This document shows positions 1-45,096 of a DNA stretch of 64,000 nt, in pieces (the stretch's first letter is position 1; every line of letters starts with the position of its first letter). Origin of the DNA: Chitinophagaceae bacterium (GTDB taxonomy: Bacteria > Bacteroidota > Bacteroidia > Chitinophagales > UBA10324). Under the pieces are notes generated by a model. The model made no database searches. It was not told where the DNA came from and saw only the letters and a list, made by a program, of their open reading frames with translations. The stretch spans positions 1 through 64,000 of the forward strand of contig CANJII010000006.1 in assembly GCA_947474435.1 (NCBI GenBank), read 5' to 3'. The position numbers were made by a program, and so were the translations under genes.

Positions 1-1374
1 GAAAATGGCAATGGTTGTCCATCAGTTGATACTCTTCATTTAACCATTAACTACGGAACACATAATGCAGAAACTCATACTGCATGTGAATCATATTCAT
101 GGAATGGAATTGATTATACCGTAAGCGGAATTTTCACACACCCTTATGAAAACGGCAATGGTTGTCCTTCAGTTGATACTCTTCATTTAACCATCAATTA
201 CGGAACTCACAATGCAGAAACTCATACAGCATGTGAAAGCTATAACTGGAACGGAATTGATTACACAGTAAGCGGAACATTTACACACCCTTACGAAAAT
301 GGTAATGGTTGTCCTTCAGTTGATACTCTTCATTTAACCATCAACTACGGAACACATAATGCAGAAACTCACACTGCATGCGAAAGCTACAACTGGAACG
401 GAATTGATTACACAGTAGGCGGAACCTTCACACACCCTTACGAAAATGGTGCTGATTGTCCTTCTGTAGATACTCTTCATTTAACAATCAACTACGGAAC
501 ACACAATGCAGAAACACACACAGCATGTGAATCTTATTCATGGAACGGAATTAACTACACAGTAAGTGGAACCTTCACTCACCCTTATGAAAATCAAAGT
601 GGTTGTCCTTCGGTTGATACTCTTCATTTGACTATCAACTACGGAACTCACAATGTAGAAACACACACAGCATGTGAATCTTATTCATGGAACGGAATTG
701 ATTACACTGTAAGCGGAACATTCACTCACCCTTACGAAAATGGTGATGGTTGTCCTTCAGTTGATACTCTTCATTTAACCATCAACTACGGAACACACAA
801 TGCAGAAACTCATACTGCATGTGAATCATATTCATGGAATGGAATTGATTATACAGTAAGCGGAACTTTCACTCATCCTTACGAAAATCAAAGTGGTTGT
901 CCTTCGGTTGATACTCTTCATTTGACTATCACTAATGGAACTAATAATGCTGAAACTCATACGGCGTGTGAGAGTTTTTCTTGGAATGGAATCACATACA
1001 ATACAAGCGGAACATTCATTAATACTTATGAGAATCAGGTTGAATGTAGTTCAGTTGATACTCTTCATTTAACCATCAACTACGGAACACATAATGCAGA
1101 AACTCATACAGCATGTGAAAGTTATAACTGGAATGGAATTGATTACACAGTAAGCGGAACATTCACGCATCCTTACGAAAACGGTGATGGCTGCCCTTCT
1201 GTTGACACATTGCATTTGACTATCAACAATGGAACACACAATACAGAAACACATGCTGCTTGTGAAACCTACAACTGGCATGGAACGGATTACACTGTTA
1301 CAGGTGTGTTCACTTATCCATATTACAATCAATCTGAATGTCCTTCGGTTGATACTTTGCACTTAACAATTAAC
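1..1374 (+). repeat. 147-bp in-frame tandem repeat array (49-aa unit, about 9.3 copies)
   Basis: The block GAAAAnGGn/GAAAATCAA occurs at 1, 148, 295, 442, 589, 736, 883, 1030, 1177 and 1324, an exact 147-base period. The first six or seven units are almost identical at base level. The units near 1030 and 1324 have diverged. The array continues off the left edge. Each unit carries ACES...WNGIDY...GTFTHPYEN...GCPSVDTLHLTI, a motif common in large Bacteroidetes surface proteins. Confidence 0.97.
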
Positions 1375-4300
1375 CACGATGTAGTTAACCAGTTGGATCC
1401 TGTTGTTGCTTGTGGTCAATATCAATTGCCTTGGATGCTAGCACTTGAAACCGGTAATTACGAACATCATTATTTTACAGTTCATGGTTGCGATTCATTG
1501 GTAAAAATTCATGTTTACATCAGCCACATTGAAGCGAATGCTGTTCAGAACGGTTGGATTTTATGTCATGATGGTAATGAAGGTTCAATTGACCTGACTG
1601 CATCACATGGTATCGGATTCTACGAATACAACTGGAGCAACGGTGCAACTACTGAAGACATCAGCGGATTGAGTGCCGGTACTTATACTGTAACAGTTAC
1701 TGATGACACACAATGTTCAGCAACAACTTCTGTTACTATTGGAGAACCAAGTGCAATTGAAGTAAGTGCACAAACGCAAAATGCTTCTTGCAATGGAAAC
1801 GAAAACGGATGGATTGATTTATCTGTAATCGGAGGTACATCGCCTTACACTTATATGTGGAGCAATGGCGCAACCACTCAGGATTTAAATAACATTGGCG
1901 TAGAAACATTCTATGTAACAGTTTACGATGCCAATGGTTGCACTGCTACTGCTTATTACATTGTAACTGGGCCGGGAAGTGCTGATGCCGGTGATAACCA
2001 AACTATTTGCGCAGGTAACTCTGTGCAGTTGTCTGCATCCGGTGGAAATATTTATTTGTGGACACCTGCTGCAAGTCTGGATAATGCATCGGTTTACAAT
2101 CCGGTTGCTTCTCCAACTGTTACAACTACTTACACGCTTACCATTTCAAATTCAAGTGGTGAACTGGTTACCAATGGTAATTTCGAAGCTGGTAATACAG
2201 GATTTACTTCTGATTATGCTTTTGTCAATACTCCTTATAGCGGTGGTTATTCTTCAGGAACAGGTTTGTGGCCTGAAGGAAAATACGCAGTAGGTCCTGA
2301 TCCTAATTATTATCACCCAAGTTTCTTCGGAAGCGGATATCCATCCGGAACCGGAAACCTGATGATTGTAAATGGATCTGTTACACCTGGAACTAAAGTG
2401 TGGGGCGAAGTAGTAAGTGTTACACCTAACACTGATTATTATTTCTCTGCACAAATCAGCACATTGGTTGAGCAATCTCCTGCTGAATTGGAATTCACAA
2501 TTAACGGATCACCAATCGGACCAAACCTTGTTGCACCTGCTACCATTAATAACTGGATTCAATTCTATGCAGTTTGGAACTCGGGAACTAACACGGGAGC
2601 TAACATTAAAATCATCAATGGAAATACCATTGCTTCCGGAAATGATTTTGGATTGGATGATATTTCGTTCACCACTGTTTGTTCTGTTACAGATACTGTG
2701 GTTATACATGTAAGCCATATTCATACTGAAATTTCTTCAACCAATGTTCATTGCCCAAGTGGTAACGATGGTTCATCCAACTTAACTGTTACAGGTGGAA
2801 TTATTCCTTACACTTATAGCTGGAGCAATGGCGCAACAACTGAAGACCTAAGCAACCTTGCTGCCGGAACATATACTGTAACAGTTTACGATGCCGCTCA
2901 CTGTTCAGGATTGAATTATGTGGTGATTACACAACCTGCAGCTATTGTTATCACACATACTGTTACCAACGCAAGTTGTAATAATGCGAATGGTGGCATT
3001 GATGTAACTGTTACAGGTGGTACTGCTCCTTACTCTTATGATTGGGTGAATGGTGCAACTACTCAAGATCTTTCATCTATTGCTTCAGGTGATTATACTT
3101 TGATTGTAACTGATGCAAATGGTTGCACTGCTACTAAATCAATTTATGTAAGCGGAACTCCTGCCATCAGTTTATCAGAAACTCACAGCAATGCCACATG
3201 TGGAATTGCAAATGCAAATGTGTTCCTGACTGTTACAGGCGGAACTGCACCATTTGATTTCTTATGGAGCAATGGAACTACCGATCAGAACCTTGCAGGT
3301 GTCGCTTCAGGTACTTACCTGGTAACTGTAACTGATATTAATGGTTGCCCTGCAGTGTTACCGGTTGCTGTGGATTGCACTCCTCCTTTGTGTAATATGC
3401 AATTGACCTACGAACACTCAAACAACCAATGCTTTGGTGAGTGCGATGGAACAATTGATTTAACTGTGATTGGCGGTACAATGCCATTCGCTTACAATTG
3501 GAGCAATGGTGCTTCCGGAATTCATCTGATGAATTTATGCGCCGGTGATTACAGTGTAACTGTGACTGATGTAAACGGATGTTTTGCCATTGCAAACATT
3601 AACATCACACAACACGATCCGATTGTGATTGTTATGGATACCAGTAACAGTAATTGCGAACACTTGTGCCATTGCACAGGAGCAATCAATGCATTCCCAA
3701 CAGGTGGTGAAGGACCATACTCTTATTCATGGTCGAATAATTCGCCATACGGTTCAACTGCTGCTGGTCTTTGCCCTGGTCAATACTATGTAACAGTTAC
3801 AGATGCTAGCGGATGTACTGCTGTTGCAGGTGCTTATGTGGATTGTATCACATTGCCACCACCACCTTGTCAGGCACCAACAAATTTTACAGTAACCAAT
3901 GTAACCTCGTCAACAGCTGTTCTTCATTGGGATGCCGTTCCAGGTGCTTATGGATACAAAATTCGTCGCCGTCCGGTAGGAACTACTACATGGGTGAATA
4001 CTGGTGTTCTTGCTCCGGCACATCAAAAAACAATTCAAAACCTCCAGTGTAATACTGCTTACGAATGGGAGATTATGACACTGTGCAATGCTGCACAAAC
4101 TGATGTTTCCGGATGGGTTGCAACTACTCCAAACTTTACCACTGCACCATACTGTGCAACGCCAACAGGATTGTATGTTGATAATATCACTTCAACTTCA
4201 GCACGAGTTCATTGGAGTCCGGTACCAAATGCCACGAGTTACAGAATCCGTTACCGTGTGCATGGAACCACTACCTGGTCGAATGTTGGAGCTGCTGGTT

Positions 4301-4728
4301 CAGTTACTCAAAAAACAATTCTTAATCTGATTTCAGGTGCAACTTACGATTGGCAATTGCGTGCAAAATGTTCCTCTTCAAATGATGTAAGTGCATTCAG
4401 TAATTCAAGCATACAACACTTTACATTGATAAGTGCAAGAATGGAAGATGAAGATAACAACTCAGCAAAAACAATCAGCATTTTCCCTAATCCTGCGAAT
4501 GACAATGTAACTGTTGAGTTAAATAACGGTTGTAACTGTAATGATGAAGCAACAATTTCAATCACTAATGTTTTAGGTCAATTGATTTATACAACCTCAA
4601 TTAACCTGAATGCAGGTAAGTTGAAATATGAAATTAAATTACCTGAATCTGTAATTGATGGAATGTACTTCATAACTGTTCGTTCAAACGAATACATTGA
4701 AACAAAACGCTTAACCGTGAGCAAGTAA
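1..4728 (+). CDS. Giant T9SS surface adhesin with tandem repeats and SprB repeats (5' end outside window)
   Basis: The reading frame is open from base 1, so the true start lies upstream; the first in-window ATG (628) is inside a repeat and is not a start. Modules in order: about 9.3 copies of a 49-residue repeat (nt 1-1374) with two Cys each (ACES, GCPS); a short linker; two SprB repeats (about nt 1540-1970, hallmark WSNGATT...GTYTVTV); one Ig-like module (nt 1975-2150); an NGNFE-type jelly-roll-like module (nt 2160-2690); five more SprB repeats (nt 2710-3850); two fibronectin type III domains (nt 3865-4420); and a C-terminal T9SS type A sorting domain (IFPNPANDN...). Such proteins are exported by T9SS and anchored at or released from the cell surface, and SprB itself is the gliding adhesin of Flavobacterium. 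Adhesion is inferred from family and architecture. A strong terminator follows the stop. Confidence 0.9.
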   Translation, partial: ENGNGCPSVDTLHLTINYGTHNAETHTACESYSWNGIDYTVSGIFTHPYENGNGCPSVDTLHLTINYGTHNAETHTACESYNWNGIDYTVSGTFTHPYENGNGCPSVDTLHLTINYGTHNAETHTACESYNWNGIDYTVGGTFTHPYENGADCPSVDTLHLTINYGTHNAETHTACESYSWNGINYTVSGTFTHPYENQSGCPSVDTLHLTINYGTHNVETHTACESYSWNGIDYTVSGTFTHPYENGDGCPSVDTLHLTINYGTHNAETHTACESYSWNGIDYTVSGTFTHPYENQSGCPSVDTLHLTITNGTNNAETHTACESFSWNGITYNTSGTFINTYENQVECSSVDTLHLTINYGTHNAETHTACESYNWNGIDYTVSGTFTHPYENGDGCPSVDTLHLTINNGTHNTETHAACETYNWHGTDYTVTGVFTYPYYNQSECPSVDTLHLTINHDVVNQLDPVVACGQYQLPWMLALETGNYEHHYFTVHGCDSLVKIHVYISHIEANAVQNGWILCHDGNEGSIDLTASHGIGFYEYNWSNGATTEDISGLSAGTYTVTVTDDTQCSATTSVTIGEPSAIEVSAQTQNASCNGNENGWIDLSVIGGTSPYTYMWSNGATTQDLNNIGVETFYVTVYDANGCTATAYYIVTGPGSADAGDNQTICAGNSVQLSASGGNIYLWTPAASLDNASVYNPVASPTVTTTYTLTISNSSGELVTNGNFEAGNTGFTSDYAFVNTPYSGGYSSGTGLWPEGKYAVGPDPNYYHPSFFGSGYPSGTGNLMIVNGSVTPGTKVWGEVVSVTPNTDYYFSAQISTLVEQSPAELEFTINGSPIGPNLVAPATINNWIQFYAVWNSGTNTGANIKIINGNTIASGNDFGLDDISFTTVCSVTDTVVIHVSHIHTEISSTNVHCPSGNDGSSNLTVTGGIIPYTYSWSNGATTEDLSNLAAGTYTVTVYDAAHCSGLNYVVITQPAAIVITHTVTNASCNNANGGIDVTVTGGTAPYSYDWVNGATTQDLSSIASGDYTLIVTDANGCTATKSIYVSGTPAISLSETHSNATCGIANANVFLTVTGGTAPFDFLWSNGTTDQNLAGVASGTYLVTVTDINGCPAVLPVAVDCTPPLCNMQLTYEHSNNQCFGECDGTIDLTVIGGTMPFAYNWSNGASGIHLMNLCAGDYSVTVTDVNGCFAIANINITQHDPIVIVMDTSNSNCEHLCHCTGAINAFPTGGEGPYSYSWSNNSPYGSTAAGLCPGQYYVTVTDASGCTAVAGAYVDCITLPPPPCQAPTNFTVTNVTSSTAVLHWDAVPGAYGYKIRRRPVGTTTWVNTGVLAPAHQKTIQNLQCNTAYEWEIMTLCNAAQTDVSGWVATTPNFTTAPYCATPTGLYVDNITSTSARVHWSPVPNATSYRIRYRVHGTTTWSNVGAAGSVTQKTILNLISGATYDWQLRAKCSSSNDVSAFSNSSIQHFTLISARMEDEDNNSAKTISIFPNPANDNVTVELNNGCNCNDEATISITNVLGQLIYTTSINLNAGKLKYEIKLPESVIDGMYFITVRSNEYIETKRLTVSK

Positions 4729-12962: not shown

Positions 12963-15900
12963 CTATTTTATTACACTGATTTTTTTCATTGCCTTATTAT
13001 CACCATTGGTAATTTCAATAAAGTACATTCCGGCAGCAAGTGAACTCACATCGGCACTCAATACATTTTTTCCTGATGTTAACTTCACAGTTTGCGATAG
13101 CACAGGGCTTCCCAATATGTTAAAGAATTTTACTTCTGCATTCGGGCTTGCGTTGCTGCTGTTCACCAATAGCGAAACAGTTTGCATGGCAGGGTTTGGA
13201 TAAACCATTAAATCAAAAACAACTTTTGTATTTATTTCATTTACTGATTCCGGATCCTGAATGGTATTTAAAACAGTATTTGTTTTTACAGGAGCATTGT
13301 AATCGAAATAGATAGATGCTGAATTGGTTATTTCAGTACCGATTGCAAGATTTGGTTTTTGATTGATTGAATACATGATAATACCAATGCTGCCAAGTGG
13401 ATTGCTCGCACTATCAGGTAAATTAATATTGTTGAAAGTAAATTTTACAATTCCACCTTCTGAAACTTCAGTTACAAAATTATGATTTGACCAATAAGGT
13501 TTTAATGAAGTAATGTCGAGGTTTGAATCAAGTGTATCAATCAACACCACTTTTTGAGCGGCATAAGTTCCGGTGTTTTGAAAATGGATGGTGTAATTCA
13601 AAACCGAATCGTTGATTGTGATGTACCCGGGAGCACCGGTGCCGCGTGGATTCACTTCTTTAAAATTCGGGTCCCATGAACCTACAACGGTATTGTTAAA
13701 ATAATTTACATTGTTCCAGGGTGTATAATCATTTAACCAATTTGCAATTGGCGAACTGTAAGCAACCGTATCTTTAAATAATATTGAAGTTCCCAAAGGA
13801 ATGTTGGTAGCCACATTATACTCCACATTAAACTGCTGATCGCTTGATGGTGTTAATGATGGAAATGCTGAAGTAATGCTATACCAATTCGGATAGCTTC
13901 CGGCATTTTGCTGAGTAAATAATGCGGGAGTAACAGTATTAAAAGCAAGCTGACCATCGTGCACATAACCCATATTGATGGCCGATTCGGTTAATGTTCC
14001 GTTGTTTGATACAACAACTGTTTGATTAAAAATATTTCCCGGAATCGGAGGAGTATAATTCACAGTAGAAATCTGTACATCATGAATCGGATTAATCACA
14101 TTGGCAAAATCAACAGTTGAAACACATCCTGATGCTGCAGTTACAGTTACCGGTACAGCATTGCTTTGGCAGCCAGCCAGCGGATAATAATACTGTACTG
14201 ATTCCGACAAAGTATAAGTTCCGGATGGAGCAATGAATGAATAAACTCCGCTTGCATTGGTGAAAGTATAACCCAATCCGGTTGCATGAATCATAATGTT
14301 TTCAATGCCAACCTCACTTCCATCCATTGTGCAATTGCCGTTTAAATCTTCATATACTGTTCCTGTAATGGTGCAATAACAACTATTGTTTGCTGCATTG
14401 TATCCAAGATTTGTCCAGGCATGATCGCCGCATCCATTGGCATCGGTTACATAAACACTGTAATATCCTGATGAAAGTCCCGAAGCTAAATTGGTTGTTT
14501 CACCATTGCTCCACGAATAGGAATAAGGTAATGTTCCGCCGTTTGCAATGGCAACAATGTTTCCGTCGGCACTGAATATGCACGACGCAGGAGTTGTTGC
14601 AAGACCAACATTTACAGGACTTGAAATTTGAATGGATGCATACTTTGTAATTGAACATCCGAGGTTATCACTAATCATACAACTGTATCCACCAGCACTT
14701 ACATTGTTTATTGAAGAGGTTGTTGCTCCATTGCTCCATGAAAAAGTAAAGGGAGCTGCTCCGGAGGTAATCATTATACCCGCACTTCCATTTGACAATG
14801 GGCACATGGCATTTCCGGTTGAAACATTTGCAGTGATAATGCTGATAGGATTCACAGTTGCACTTCCGGTTCGCACGCAACCAACGGCATCAGTAATATG
14901 AAAACCATAATTGCCCGGTGAAAGATTCGTGGCTGTTAAACCAGATTGCGGAGGATAAGTTATCCAGTTTATTGTATATGGTGTTGTTCCACCGGTAATT
15001 GCTACAGTTGCAGATCCGGTGGGTGAGGTACATGAACTTGGAGTACTTGAATATGTTGCTGTAATCGGAGTGCTTGCTGTAACATTTGCATAAGCTTGTC
15101 CAATACAATTATTAGCATCAGTTACAGTTACCATGTAGAAACCGGCAGTTAAACCTGTTACGGTTTGTGTTTGTTGACCATTGCTCCATAAATAACTATA
15201 TGGAGAAGTTCCACCCGAACCGAAAGCAATAGCGCTTCCATCGTTTTGCAAACAGGTGGCTGGTGTAACAGTAGGGTTGGCTCCAATTGTAATTGATTGT
15301 TGTATGTACCCGTAATTTACAGTATAACAACCTTGTGCATCAGTAACTGTAACTACAATCTGACCCATTTGTAAACCTGAAATGGAAGGACTGTTTGCTC
15401 CATTTGACCAGATATAGGAATAAGGGGCAACACCACCGGATAACGCATTTACTGTGGCTGTCCCATTTGTACAATTTGCTCCAGTTGTTGCTATATTAAA
15501 ACCAATCGGTGACTGATTATATATATACACAGCAGTATCACTATTGGCATAAGAACCAAATACACATCCGTTAGCGTCAGTTATTAAAACATCATAAGTA
15601 CCTGCCGGCAGATTAGCAGGAGTACCTGTCGCCACAATATTTCCATTAATGATGTCGCTCCATTGAACTAAAAACGGTGCTGTTCCGCCGGTAATTGCAA
15701 CATCAGCAGTTCCAAGTGCCGGACATATAGCAGCTGTAGAAGTAACCACATAAGTAAATGGAGGAGAACCGATGAAATAACCATAACATGAAACTCCAAA
15801 ACCATCAGTGCCACTAACATAAAACGAACCACCGGAATAATTGAATATTGTATCTGATGTGGTATTAATTACAACAGTGGTAGAAACGCCTCCTAAATAA

Positions 15901-16106
15901 TAATAAAGAGTGATTGGAGGTGTAAGCGTTGAAGTCTGCACTTCTAAAATACCATCGTTGTTACAAGGTTGTTGTATTAAATTAAATGAGAGATTAGATA
16001 GTTGTGCATTGCTGTACAAACTGATTGAAATTAAAAAAACAATAAGCAGAATTGATTTACTCAATTTGATTTTTATTGTTTGGAAAAGATTGCCGGTGTT
16101 TTTCAT
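12963..16106 (-). CDS. Secreted SprB-repeat protein with SdrD B-like and T9SS type A domains
   Basis: A signal-anchor-like N-terminus (residues about 14-35, LLIVFLISISLYSNAQ) precedes a unique domain (to about 120) and six SprB-type repeats (about 125-560; GGTxPYSYxWSNG...AGxYxVTVTDANGC), each with paired Cys. Next come a SdrD B-like domain (about 575-640; VYEDLNGNCTMDGSEVGI...GVYSF), a DUF11/DUF7619-like region (about 680-955; YTIHFQNTGTYAAQKVVLIDTLD...SIYFDYNAPVKTN), and the type A sorting domain (about 965-1047; VYPNPAMQTVSL...GMYFIEI). A surface or secreted adhesin is inferred. Transcription probably starts from a CAAATGTA core at 16202-16209. Confidence 0.92.
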   Translation of the reverse strand: MKNTGNLFQTIKIKLSKSILLIVFLISISLYSNAQLSNLSFNLIQQPCNNDGILEVQTSTLTPPITLYYYLGGVSTTVVINTTSDTIFNYSGGSFYVSGTDGFGVSCYGYFIGSPPFTYVVTSTAAICPALGTADVAITGGTAPFLVQWSDIINGNIVATGTPANLPAGTYDVLITDANGCVFGSYANSDTAVYIYNQSPIGFNIATTGANCTNGTATVNALSGGVAPYSYIWSNGANSPSISGLQMGQIVVTVTDAQGCYTVNYGYIQQSITIGANPTVTPATCLQNDGSAIAFGSGGTSPYSYLWSNGQQTQTVTGLTAGFYMVTVTDANNCIGQAYANVTASTPITATYSSTPSSCTSPTGSATVAITGGTTPYTINWITYPPQSGLTATNLSPGNYGFHITDAVGCVRTGSATVNPISIITANVSTGNAMCPLSNGSAGIMITSGAAPFTFSWSNGATTSSINNVSAGGYSCMISDNLGCSITKYASIQISSPVNVGLATTPASCIFSADGNIVAIANGGTLPYSYSWSNGETTNLASGLSSGYYSVYVTDANGCGDHAWTNLGYNAANNSCYCTITGTVYEDLNGNCTMDGSEVGIENIMIHATGLGYTFTNASGVYSFIAPSGTYTLSESVQYYYPLAGCQSNAVPVTVTAASGCVSTVDFANVINPIHDVQISTVNYTPPIPGNIFNQTVVVSNNGTLTESAINMGYVHDGQLAFNTVTPALFTQQNAGSYPNWYSITSAFPSLTPSSDQQFNVEYNVATNIPLGTSILFKDTVAYSSPIANWLNDYTPWNNVNYFNNTVVGSWDPNFKEVNPRGTGAPGYITINDSVLNYTIHFQNTGTYAAQKVVLIDTLDSNLDITSLKPYWSNHNFVTEVSEGGIVKFTFNNINLPDSASNPLGSIGIIMYSINQKPNLAIGTEITNSASIYFDYNAPVKTNTVLNTIQDPESVNEINTKVVFDLMVYPNPAMQTVSLLVNSSNASPNAEVKFFNILGSPVLSQTVKLTSGKNVLSADVSSLAAGMYFIEITNGDNKAMKKISVIK

Positions 16107-41440: not shown

Positions 41441-42055
41441 TTAGGAGGAATATTTAATTCTTTTATGCCTTTCAAAGAACCCCCCAATAAAACTTAATAG
41501 TGATAATGCTTTTAAACTATTTAGCTCTGTACCAAAAGTTGTATCAGAACCATGCATAACACCATGTCTGTTTAATATTAACCCTTGCATTTCTTCTTTA
41601 TAAAATTTTTTATCAATTGAATTTATTTCTGTTATTAATGAAAGTAATATTTTCAGATGCTCAGGTGTTTGATTTAGTTCTATTATTTTTTTTAGTTCTA
41701 TCTTTTTTCCTTTTGACTTTTTATAAAGCTGTTCTTTACAAATTCCATCTGATTGAATTAAAAAGAGGGAAGTTGAAGCAAAAAATAATTTTTTACGATG
41801 CGCTTCAAATGCTTCAGATAAAATTAAACTTCTTTCAGGGTAGTAATGAATCAAATTTTTCTTGGTAGTATTTAAGTTTTTTTTGAAATGCTTTTTCATT
41901 AACTCATCTACCAATATTTTTTTATTTTTCTGAAGAAAATTGTTTGCAAGAAAAATATCATTCAATGTTAAATCTTCAGAGATATACCATCCGATTTCAG
42001 ATAAAGGTTTTAGTGCTTTAGTAAACAGTTCGATATGATTTATTTTATCATGCAT
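41441..42055 (-). CDS. HEPN-like protein (RX4H motif), partner of the helicase/nuclease
   Basis: A 204-residue, largely alpha-helical protein with no signal peptide. The C-terminal part holds NRHGVMHGSDTTFGTELNSLKAL, quoted in two parts: NRHGVMHG at 162-169 gives R163-x4-H168, the catalytic signature of HEPN ribonucleases, with a polar residue (H164) directly after the Arg as is usual. The Tyr/Phe-Gly-Thr...NSLKAL continuation is common in HEPN-like families. HEPN proteins often act as RNases in defence and toxin-antitoxin systems. It lies 42 bases downstream of the helicase gene on the same strand, so the two are probably one operon. Exact family and toxicity are inferred. Confidence 0.65.
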   Translation of the reverse strand: MHDKINHIELFTKALKPLSEIGWYISEDLTLNDIFLANNFLQKNKKILVDELMKKHFKKNLNTTKKNLIHYYPERSLILSEAFEAHRKKLFFASTSLFLIQSDGICKEQLYKKSKGKKIELKKIIELNQTPEHLKILLSLITEINSIDKKFYKEEMQGLILNRHGVMHGSDTTFGTELNSLKALSLLSFIGGFFERHKRIKYSS

Positions 42056-42097
42056 TTTCTGTTTGATTTTATTCCGACTTCTTATTTGATGGTTGAG

Positions 42098-45052
42098 TTA
42101 TTTATTCCCTAAAAAATCTGACCAGTCACTCCATCCAGTTTCCTTATACACATTTGAGGGATTGCTAGGCAAATTGGCCGGTCGCAATTTAGATTTTGAA
42201 TATTGCTGCCATTCCCTTGTTGATTTGAACTTTAAATTTCGAACAAAATTTCTTGCAACTTCAAAACTTAAAAAGCTAATTTTTTGATTAGCAATTTTAT
42301 GATTTCCAAGCCAATCACCATAGCTTTTCCAACCTGAATTTTTATAGGTTCTGTTTGGATTTGTTGGAATATCAAATGGTAGTTTAGGCAAGTTGGGGAA
42401 TTCTCCTTTCAAATATTTTTTCCAATCTATTTGTGATTTAATATTCAATAAATGGATAAATTTTTTTGCTTCATCATATGGTTTAAAAATTCTATCCTTA
42501 GTTGCAATACAATTTTTCCCAAGAAAATCTCCCCATCCCTTCCATTCCTTTCCATATATAATTGGAGCTTTTGGAATATCTGTTGGAAAATTTTTTGATT
42601 TCGATAATGTTTCCCATTCTTCTCGTGATTTTAAATTTAATTGAGCAGCAAAAAATTTTGCTTCTTCATAATTTCGATACTTCCGTTTTTGTGCAGCTAT
42701 TGAATTTGTTCCCAACCATACACCTAAATTTTCCCACCCTTTATTTTCATAAACGCTATTTGGATTAGAAGGAATATCAATTGGCTTCATTCCAGATTTA
42801 ATATACTTTTTCCATTCTCTCTGCGATTTTAAATTTAGAGATTGAACAAATTTTAACGCTTCAGAATAATTCCTATATTGCTTTAGTGTAGGTGCGATAT
42901 TTCCAGTACCTAAAAAATCGCCCCATCCTTTCCAATCTTTACTATAAACTAATTCAACTTTTCGCGGCAAATCATGAGGCTTAATATCCTTTTTAATATA
43001 AAGGCGCCATTCAGGGTTTTCTGACTTTAATTTTAGATGTCTTACATAATTTCTTGCCTCCTCAAAAGGCATCCAACTTAATTTTGCTAATCTGTCCCAG
43101 GCTTTTAATTCAATAGAATAAATTAATTCATCCTCATTTATTTTTTCGGCAATTAATTCATCAATTTTAAATTGAATAAAAGATTCTTTTTTGCTTGATG
43201 TTTTATACTTGCTTATGTCTCTAAAAAATTCAACGATTCGTTCGTCGTTTGATGCTAATGCCCTGAGAGTTGTCAATACTTCTTTGAATTCATCGCTTTC
43301 AATTATTTCCTCTGTATTATTTGATGTAGTAAACACGGGTAGAATGACATATCCGAATTCTTTACCTTCCTTTTTTCTTAATGCTCTGCCAACTGCCTGA
43401 ACGATATCAATAGTGCTTTTCCTCGGGTCGGCAAATAATACACAATCAATATTTGGGACATCAATACCTTCAGTTAGACATTTTGCATTTGTAATAATTC
43501 CCTTTTCAGTTGCTGCAAATTCATCTACTATTCTACCTCTTACAGAAGTAGGCATTGCTCCTGAAACATGAAATGATTTTACCGAAGAAAAATTCGGATA
43601 AGCCGAACTGAATACAGATTGACTTTGCTCAAATGCTTCAGCTTTTTTTATGCTTGAATGAAAAGTAACCGCATGATGAATCGGATATTCCATCATTGCT
43701 TTCCGAACAGCAATTAATGAAGCAAGTGTTCGCGCTTCAGTTTCTTTATCCCATTCCTTGCCAGTTGGTTTTACAAAAGTATTTTGCTCAATTATTTTTT
43801 TTACTTCAACATTGGAAATAAAAAGTGTAATAATTTTGTAGTCAGATAAGATTCCAATTTCTATAGCTTCTTTAAATGATAACTGGCTAAATGTTTCGCC
43901 ATAAACATTTATATCATCCATACTTAAAACGGTATCGGAAGAACCTGCATATCTCCTTTCAGTTGCAGTCATAAAAATTCGTTTTGAAATTTTTATGTTT
44001 TTGTCAAATAATAAATGGCTGAATAATTTATCCTGTTCGCCAACCGTTTTATGAGCTTCGTCAAAAATTGCCAAATCAAATTCATGATTAGAAATTTTGC
44101 ATGCTTCAGAAATTGCTTTACCTGATTGGTAAGTTGTAAAAACAATTGTTTTGTCTTTTGAATTGTGTTTTAACCAATCAGCAATAAAAGTTTTATCAGT
44201 CACGCATGGGACCCCAATTTCATTTGTATGAATTACTACATCATCGTTTTTGCCAATGCCTTCATCGCTACAAACACATAACCATGAAACCGTATCTTTA
44301 GTAGCAACAGATTCTCTTAAATAAACTTCGAGGGTTTGTTTTACCAATGAAAGACTTGGTACCGCAACAATTATGCTTTTAGATTTTAGTTCTTTGGTAA
44401 TCCAATAGCCAGTTAAACTTTTTCCGGCACCACATGGAAAAACCAATTTTCCCCTTGAATGCTTCTCCTTTACAAAATATTCTTTTGCTTCATTTAATGC
44501 TTTTGCCTGATGAGGTTTTGGTTTGTATGCAGTTATTTTTTTCTCTTTTCCAGAAAGTAAATTTCGTAACCAATCGAAAAATTCTTTGTCCAGTTTCCTC
44601 CATTGGTCTGAATTACAGAAACCGATATTGTTTTTGCCTTGATAAATTTTTGCATAATCATCAACAGTAGTACAGACTAAACAATAAGTTATGTTTTCAG
44701 CTATACCATTGCTTAATGAAATGAAAGTTGAAATAGCTCTGTGAGATAACCGCTGCTCTTCTTCCTGAAGGTACTTACATTGGATCGCCCAGAATGTTCC
44801 ATCAAATGTTTCAGCAATAAGGTCTATTCCTAGGTCATTTGATGGGAGGTTTAATTTTTTTAATATGGATGGGGAAACTTCATTTTGTAACCAAACATTT
44901 TTTAGTTTGGTTTTATATTTCGGATTATATTTTAAATAATATTTCGTTAACTCTTCAAAAGCTTTTCCTTTTTCAAGTCTGGTTTTGCTTTCAAGTACAT
45001 TTTTAAAATCGCCCCAAGAATTAATTGAAGAAATGAATGATTGAAAATTCAT
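42098..45052 (-). CDS. Mrr-like nuclease / SF2 helicase with five C-terminal integrase-type repeats
   Basis: 984 aa. Residues 1-165: a PD-(D/E)xK restriction-endonuclease-like domain with E33/E34, D77 (GIDLIAE) and Q91-C-K93 (AIQCKYL). Residues 170-565: a DEAD/DEAH SF2 helicase with a PHQAKAL Q-like motif, Walker A FPCGAGKS (205-212), DEAH (331-334), MTATER (361-366), motif V GIDVPNIDCVLFADP (529-543) and motif VI QAVGRALR (552-559). This is the layout of type III/ISP-like restriction and stand-alone defence helicases. Residues 661-984: five repeats of about 64 aa (EARNFVRxLxLKSxxEWxxY...PxDIPxNPxxVYxxxGWxxWGDWLG), resembling the phage-integrase repeat unit. No methyltransferase gene is adjacent. 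Probably acts on DNA; defence role inferred. Confidence 0.85.
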   Translation of the reverse strand: MNFQSFISSINSWGDFKNVLESKTRLEKGKAFEELTKYYLKYNPKYKTKLKNVWLQNEVSPSILKKLNLPSNDLGIDLIAETFDGTFWAIQCKYLQEEEQRLSHRAISTFISLSNGIAENITYCLVCTTVDDYAKIYQGKNNIGFCNSDQWRKLDKEFFDWLRNLLSGKEKKITAYKPKPHQAKALNEAKEYFVKEKHSRGKLVFPCGAGKSLTGYWITKELKSKSIIVAVPSLSLVKQTLEVYLRESVATKDTVSWLCVCSDEGIGKNDDVVIHTNEIGVPCVTDKTFIADWLKHNSKDKTIVFTTYQSGKAISEACKISNHEFDLAIFDEAHKTVGEQDKLFSHLLFDKNIKISKRIFMTATERRYAGSSDTVLSMDDINVYGETFSQLSFKEAIEIGILSDYKIITLFISNVEVKKIIEQNTFVKPTGKEWDKETEARTLASLIAVRKAMMEYPIHHAVTFHSSIKKAEAFEQSQSVFSSAYPNFSSVKSFHVSGAMPTSVRGRIVDEFAATEKGIITNAKCLTEGIDVPNIDCVLFADPRKSTIDIVQAVGRALRKKEGKEFGYVILPVFTTSNNTEEIIESDEFKEVLTTLRALASNDERIVEFFRDISKYKTSSKKESFIQFKIDELIAEKINEDELIYSIELKAWDRLAKLSWMPFEEARNYVRHLKLKSENPEWRLYIKKDIKPHDLPRKVELVYSKDWKGWGDFLGTGNIAPTLKQYRNYSEALKFVQSLNLKSQREWKKYIKSGMKPIDIPSNPNSVYENKGWENLGVWLGTNSIAAQKRKYRNYEEAKFFAAQLNLKSREEWETLSKSKNFPTDIPKAPIIYGKEWKGWGDFLGKNCIATKDRIFKPYDEAKKFIHLLNIKSQIDWKKYLKGEFPNLPKLPFDIPTNPNRTYKNSGWKSYGDWLGNHKIANQKISFLSFEVARNFVRNLKFKSTREWQQYSKSKLRPANLPSNPSNVYKETGWSDWSDFLGNK
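42101..43072 (-). repeat. Five tandem protein repeats at the helicase C-terminus
   Basis: Units at residues about 661-722, 726-790, 792-855, 857-925 and 927-984, each with EARxFV, LxLKSxxEW, a PxDIP turn and a Trp-rich GWxxWGDFLG end. DNA identity between units is low, so the array is old. Confidence 0.85.
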
Positions 45053-45096
45053 AAAGAATCAAATTCATTATTGATGACACAAAATAAAAAAATTTA

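Follow-up and report, generated by a model that had tools for sequence, protein, structure and literature searches.

A methyltransferase-less, type ISP-like putative restriction motor with a proposed repeat reader and a phage-family HEPN-type RNase candidate are probably separable neighbours in a probable defence insertion of a Chitinophagaceae bacterium

Contig CANJII010000006.1 of a Chitinophagaceae bacterium (assembly GCA_947474435.1) was analysed over its first 64,000 nucleotides, referred to here as the window. Between dnaX and a DUF2461 gene it holds an accessory insertion of two genes, P1 and P2, at a site that gains and loses genes. The reading we hold to be moderately probable is that of a defence insertion of two separable genes, in which P1 is a stand-alone restriction motor with an INT_rpt repeat reader and P2 a probable HEPN-type RNase of a phage family; both are probably antiviral. 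As judged from sequence, P1 is a methylase-less motor derived from type ISP restriction enzymes and apparently fitted with a repeat reader, and P2 a member of an uncharacterised, phage-carried and probably HEPN family.

42098..45052, minus strand: P1, a 984-aa open reading frame (ORF) with an Mrr nuclease, a superfamily 2 (SF2) translocase and an INT_rpt array (ORF list, Pfam, LlaBIII match)
41441..42055, minus strand: P2, a 204-aa ORF of the phrog_28904 family, HEPN-like (profile match, family alignment)
41441..45096, no strand: the accessory insertion, approximate extent, from DUF2461 to dnaX (empty junction of 66 bp in G014 and G015)

By its domain content, P1 is the Mrr-nuclease and SF2-motor half of a type ISP enzyme whose modification half has been replaced by INT_rpt repeats. 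From the N-terminus to the C-terminus its parts are as follows.

44558..44989, minus strand: Mrr-type PD-(D/E)xK nuclease region, about residues 22-165, with D77 and Q91-x-K93 (Mrr_cat_2 E 9e-18, LlaBIII alignment)
43223..44545, minus strand: helicase-like SF2 ATPase with a full set of intact motifs, about residues 170-610 (ResIII, Helicase_C, motif positions)
43073..43222, minus strand: short linker, residues 611-660, where the coupler, methyltransferase and target recognition domain (TRD) of a type ISP enzyme would start (domain matches missing)
42107..43072, minus strand: five INT_rpt repeats, residues 661-982, basic with an isoelectric point of 9.8 (Pfam, repeat positions)

Besides Mrr_cat_2, Pfam returned ResIII (E 1e-18), Helicase_C (2e-14) and INT_rpt (4e-6). 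The nuclease residues (E33/E34, D77 and Q91-C92-K93), the helicase motifs (K211 in GAGKS, DEAH at 331, TAT at 362, TEGI at 527 and QAVGRA at 552) and the five C-terminal repeats were all located in the sequence, those named in the initial annotation of the window at the positions it had given. The best structure match was LlaBIII (4xqk), with which residues 18-621 of P1 align over LlaBIII residues 23-663 (E 4e-67), the nuclease motif facing GVDLVAE...IQAK; residues 179-617 also align with LlaGI. P1 shares with these type ISP enzymes the same nuclease and motor in the same order, at about 30-35% identity over 600 residues, but carries INT_rpt repeats instead of coupler, N6-methyltransferase and Type_ISP_C, and belongs to a separate clade. 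Whereas true type ISP proteins show all three of these domains, and two of them matched the coupler (PF22240) at E 2.5e-49 or better, P1 gave no ISP_coupler, N6_Mtase or Type_ISP_C (PF18135) match in Pfam and none to the coupler at E<=1. The best PADLOC models for P1 were type IIG and type I restriction endonuclease-methyltransferases, aligned only up to residue 611, and no model library names the architecture. The identification of P1 as a type ISP restriction-modification (RM) enzyme was rejected because coupler, methyltransferase and Type_ISP_C are all missing, and the idea that an adjoining gene supplies the lost methyltransferase was likewise rejected, since none lies adjacent to P1 and P2 in the window, in line with the initial annotation.

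Five relatives of P1 were found. Scanning of 378 genomes of the order yielded three with the P1 architecture: G725 (1178 aa, 75% identity over the N-terminal half, 8 repeats), G596 (1239 aa, 52% identity, 9 repeats) and G714 (1049 aa, 42% identity, 6 repeats). A repeat-based scan of viral contigs added a 987-aa protein on the phage-like contig L105, with the complete P1 layout, 42% identity over its whole length and 5 repeats, and a later viral-contig scan its near-duplicate L118, which is cut off by the contig end. Among 395 genomes across the whole phylum, none besides that of the window carried a protein of comparable similarity to P1. Single-sequence scans of viral contigs with P1 or P2 as query gave no match; alignments were needed. 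Repeat number thus ranges from 5 to 9 across P1 and its countable relatives, as counted from patterns and completed by eye for G725, G714 and L105. The INT_rpt proteins form one clade (support 100/99) apart from the type ISP rows, in an arbitrarily rooted tree with some long branches that holds five INT_rpt rows, L118 being left out; one row tagged ISP (L125/G612) is in fact a protein with 13 HA repeats.

The relatives of P1 keep company with defence genes, a point that the initial annotation had proposed to check for homologues of the two proteins. Defence islands (Shango/TerY-like, PDC-S02/AbiE and type ISP) surround three of the four distinct loci. In G725 the Shango genes SngB and SngC (E 1e-167 and 3e-214), together with a TerB_C protein, lie on one side of the relative and vWA, PP2C and kinase genes on the other, all in one block (L133); the relative of G596 adjoins a DUF1016/PDC-S02 nuclease and AbiEi/AbiEii. 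The island of the G714 relative also holds a complete type ISP enzyme (Type_ISP_C E 3e-110) and what by eye is a likely integrase, and the L105 relative comes after a Cas4-like PD-(D/E)xK protein. A further Mrr-SF2-like protein with a different C terminus stands in one operon with two N6/N4-methyltransferases in G734 (L138 3879-9999), an arrangement of modification in trans.

The repeats of P1 measure about 65 aa (range 55-71 aa), end at residues 715, 781, 845, 916 and 982, and follow the approximate consensus F-EEAR-FV--L-LKS--EW--Y-KSG-KP-DIP-NP---YK--GWKGWGDFLG. Similar repeats occur in a plasmid-borne VPA1269-family protein beside GmtY, in a jumbo-phage protein, and in an unusual 1119-aa fusion in which INT_rpt-like repeats are joined to an RNase_H_2 domain and an IS66-type DDE transposase (G223, L065 6391-9750). 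Helicase-like proteins on viral contigs also carry related repeats. Long INT_rpt proteins were noted on the viral contigs L103, L108 and L110, one of about 1425 aa starting with a repeat array and the others helicase-like N-terminally. VPA1269 and GmtY belong to the gamma-mobile-trio, a mobile element with a recombinase, and P1, which shares related repeats with the VPA1269-family protein, differs in being a nuclease-helicase; the GmtX/GmtY/GmtZ set is not present in the insertion. We infer that the common denominator of INT_rpt-bearing proteins is DNA binding. With the repeats occurring on proteins as different as restriction motors, a transposase, recombinase-linked proteins and viral helicases, knowledge of their target would explain several mobile-element systems.

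The array of the G596 relative is a tandem repeat at the DNA level (198 bp, 8.8 copies, 81% matches), whereas none was found in the P1 copy of the window, whose repeats have diverged. In the eight full G596 repeats, 16 of 66 columns, chosen after the data had been seen, hold most amino-acid changes, with nonsynonymous and synonymous proportions (pN and pS) of 0.47 and 0.34; the remaining columns form a conserved framework (pN 0.075, pS 0.42), and the overall dN/dS is 0.34. One may speculate that INT_rpt is a modular, evolvable DNA-recognition array, in which a fixed framework would carry a few hypervariable positions per repeat and units would expand and contract (5 to 9 among relatives). The order and type of the repeats, rather than a folded TRD, would then set specificity, and self would be spared through the lack of that target in the host genome; we regard this as quite improbable. 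A second repeat family, HA (PF03457), is found on the same Mrr-SF2 module, with 8 repeats in Rhodococcus (P0003) and 13 in G612. The Rhodococcus plasmid type (WP_064689746) shares with P1 the nuclease, the motor, a C-terminal array and the lack of a methyltransferase, but its repeats are unrelated to INT_rpt by profile comparison. P1 carries no HA repeats in Pfam and has INT_rpt instead, and the notion of one common family was rejected as hhalign of the two repeat sets gave no match. The presence of both kinds of array on the same module suggests that the restriction motor has acquired repeat readers more than once. The G612 protein (L137 6018-10991), which combines its 13 HA repeats with Mrr and an SF2 helicase, comes from a member of the Bacteroidota; HA arrays on this module extend beyond the actinobacteria.

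P2 belongs to a widespread, nameless and mostly phage-carried family. Its sole profile match was phrog_28904, of unknown function (E 2.5e-23, and E 7e-38 for the family profile), and nothing significant was obtained in Pfam, PADLOC or NCBIfam. Alignment-based scans placed the family at 34 viral-contig loci, at six loci on plasmids and a Campylobacterales metagenome-assembled genome (MAG), and in five other Bacteroidota genomes, about 45 loci outside the window in all. Members are typically 270-310 aa long, and P2 of the window is about 70 N-terminal residues shorter. In phages they are single genes inserted among structural genes, the neighbours being identified by eye: between tail-completion and baseplate genes of P2-like phages in several of L071-L079, L052, L053 and L057, and near portal or terminase genes in L054, L090, L094, L097 and L099. 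Other members stand beside umuDC-like genes (L088, L089) or, on an inovirus-like contig of filamentous-phage appearance (L085), downstream of a zot-like gene. In one P2-like prophage an AbiV (HEPN) gene lies directly beside the P2-family gene (L071 5960-6514), and the member in G746 (L145 8175-8918) has an internal stop codon and is apparently decayed.

P2 is likely to be a small RNA-cutting protein, to judge from its candidate motif, which the initial annotation had pointed out.

41552..41569, minus strand: R163-H-x3-H168, candidate RNase motif of P2 (conserved in family alignments)

All 15 aligned relatives keep R163, H168 and G169, and a 27-row family alignment shows N-R-H and H-G without exception; invariance in 15 relatives argues that R-x4-H is not a chance motif. 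The published marks of HEPN proteins (PMC3710099) are R-x4-6-H and a polar residue after the arginine, to which many families add an acidic residue in helix 2. P2 has both the spacing and the polar residue (R163-H164...H168). In the 15-row alignment, D or E precedes an invariant G104, and D169-G170, invariant in the 27 rows, lies in a helix ahead of the motif-bearing region, its equivalence to HEPN helix 2 resting on the putative fold. AlphaFold2 models are all-helical, with predicted local distance difference test scores of 72 for P2 and 89 for its relative in L073. A HEPN fold is suggested only; a profile search of the PDB with the P2 alignment returned nothing but designed bundles and coiled coils. 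A known parallel is Tha, a tail-activated HEPN RNase of S. aureus prophages (PMC11087260): like members of the P2 family, it is encoded by phages as a single protein of some 300 aa and has R-x4-H-G in its C-terminal part, but profile comparison gave no significant homology to P2, and the P2 family mostly occupies the structural-gene regions of phages that infect other hosts.

P1 and P2 are co-directional and separated by 42 bases, as the initial annotation had described, and they are the sole ORFs between DUF2461 and dnaX, neighbours whose identity Pfam bore out. Its suggestion that the cassette is accessory rather than core is strengthened by comparison with relatives. Both genes are missing from all 15 other genomes of the family examined, and in the congeners G014 and G015 the DUF2461-dnaX gap is 66 bp, with flanking sequence continuous on both sides of the window's insertion. 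In another congener, G011, the same junction carries two small ORFs (L012 939-1501), the first HicB-like by eye with a Pfam match to DUF7387 and the second a HicA toxin (E 3e-16), which points to a recurrent insertion point; in G013, DUF2461 is gone from the junction. The G+C content is low, at 26% for P2 and 32% for P1, against 37.5 +/- 2.8% for 34 ORFs of the window, and this inequality is compatible with separate origins of the two genes. No recombinase was found within the insertion.

The initial annotation had further taken P1 and P2 for one system, with P1 as sensor or cutter of foreign DNA and P2 as the effector. Adjacency, common direction and the shared insertion would fit an obligate two-gene system with P2 as dedicated effector of P1, but the failure to co-occur elsewhere, which that annotation itself had named as speaking against its proposal, is what was found. 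With tblastn, the N-terminal half of P1 was absent from 52 stretches around P2-family genes, some of them overlapping, and P2 from ten stretches around P1-family or architecture-related genes; nor does any P2 relative occur anywhere in the genomes of G725, G596, G714, G612 and G734. The conserved pair, searched for from both sides and never found outside the window, was therefore rejected, and the unequal G+C contents also tell against an obligate system, which we judge very unlikely. By sequence comparison, P1 and P2 are not a conserved pair and are probably separable; the defence flavour and the accessory status of the earlier reading stand, while the dedicated pair is wrong or at least unsupported. 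A looser connection is conceivable, in which P2 would be a PrrC-like guard, an RNase kept silent beside a restriction enzyme until a phage blocks or outpaces that enzyme, with P1 as one of several partners. PrrC is silenced by a linked type I RM enzyme and activated by a phage anti-restriction factor (PMC2610378). Besides the gene behind P1 in the window, P2-family genes follow restriction enzymes in three further bacteria. In G552 the distance is 49 bp, from a methyltransferase-containing enzyme of 1252 aa that is probably type IIG; in G382 it is about 2 kb, from a type IIG enzyme that carries a Type_ISP_C domain; and in the Campylobacterales MAG (L002) it is about 0.7 kb, from a HinP1I-type RM pair. 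These instances speak for a guard role. P2 resembles PrrC with EcoprrI as a candidate HEPN RNase encoded beside a restriction enzyme, but it lacks an ABC ATPase domain such as PrrC and RloC have, and the partner enzyme of its family varies or is missing. No restriction enzyme was seen beside the P2-family gene at the 34 viral loci, near the relatives in G174 or on most plasmids, and the proximity could be explained by general clustering of defence genes. A guard role is accordingly a minor possibility.

For P1 alone, it could be proposed that the repeats recognize either hypermodified phage DNA or some DNA structure; the enzyme would then be modification-dependent, in the manner of type IV, and need no methylase of its own. 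P1 shares the layout of nuclease, SF2 motor and C-terminal reader without methyltransferase that we take to be that of SauUSI; the helicase 7clg, presumably SauUSI, was a weak match (E 4e-8), and the occurrence of P1 in genomes without a partner methylase fits. The INT_rpt repeats in recombinase-linked proteins and a transposase argue instead for sequence or site binding, and we consider modification dependence unlikely. The same occurrences of the repeats could be taken to mean that P1 is non-defensive and aids mobile DNA, a role that has been proposed for telomere-linked helicases on the linear plasmids of Streptomyces. Actinobacterial plasmids often carry P1-like helicase matches, of which a single one, inspected more closely, bears HA repeats. 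A non-defensive role is highly unlikely, in that the Mrr nuclease of P1 is intact, relatives on chromosomes stand beside known defence systems, and the window insertion holds no transfer genes.

If the favoured reading of two separable defence genes is correct, P1 would bind foreign DNA through its INT_rpt repeats, the part choosing the target, translocate by ATP hydrolysis, and nick or cut upon collision or stalling of the motor, by analogy with LlaBIII. Cutting by type ISP enzymes needs the convergence of two motors (PMC7049714). The decision between self and non-self would fall to the repeats instead of a methyl mark. P2 would cleave RNA on infection in a metal-independent manner, and its family would consist of probable HEPN RNases acting alone as effectors of abortive infection or superinfection exclusion. 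Several points weigh against this reading. It offers no explanation of how P1 would spare its own chromosome without methylation, and the literature found on INT_rpt repeats consists of passing mentions, among which no demonstrated biochemical role was found. For P2, Foldseek with both models listed HEPN 1o3u, AbiV 9bj7 and the HEPN toxin 7ae6, none significant (E above 1), and profile comparison with Tha-1 aligned only the R-x4-HG motif (E 0.07). The HEPN label given by the initial annotation is plausible but was confirmed significantly by no profile or fold search.

Should P1 restrict foreign DNA, it would represent a type ISP motor put to new use, without a methylase and with a repeat reader that can be exchanged, and raise the question of how self DNA is spared. 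The P2 family bears an RNase-like signature, is represented by no model of the defence library used, and stands as a concrete candidate for a new antiphage system of one gene.

Elsewhere in the window, positions 628-4728 and 12963-16106 encode large proteins that combine SprB repeats with a Por secretion tail, as would be expected of proteins that Bacteroidota secrete.

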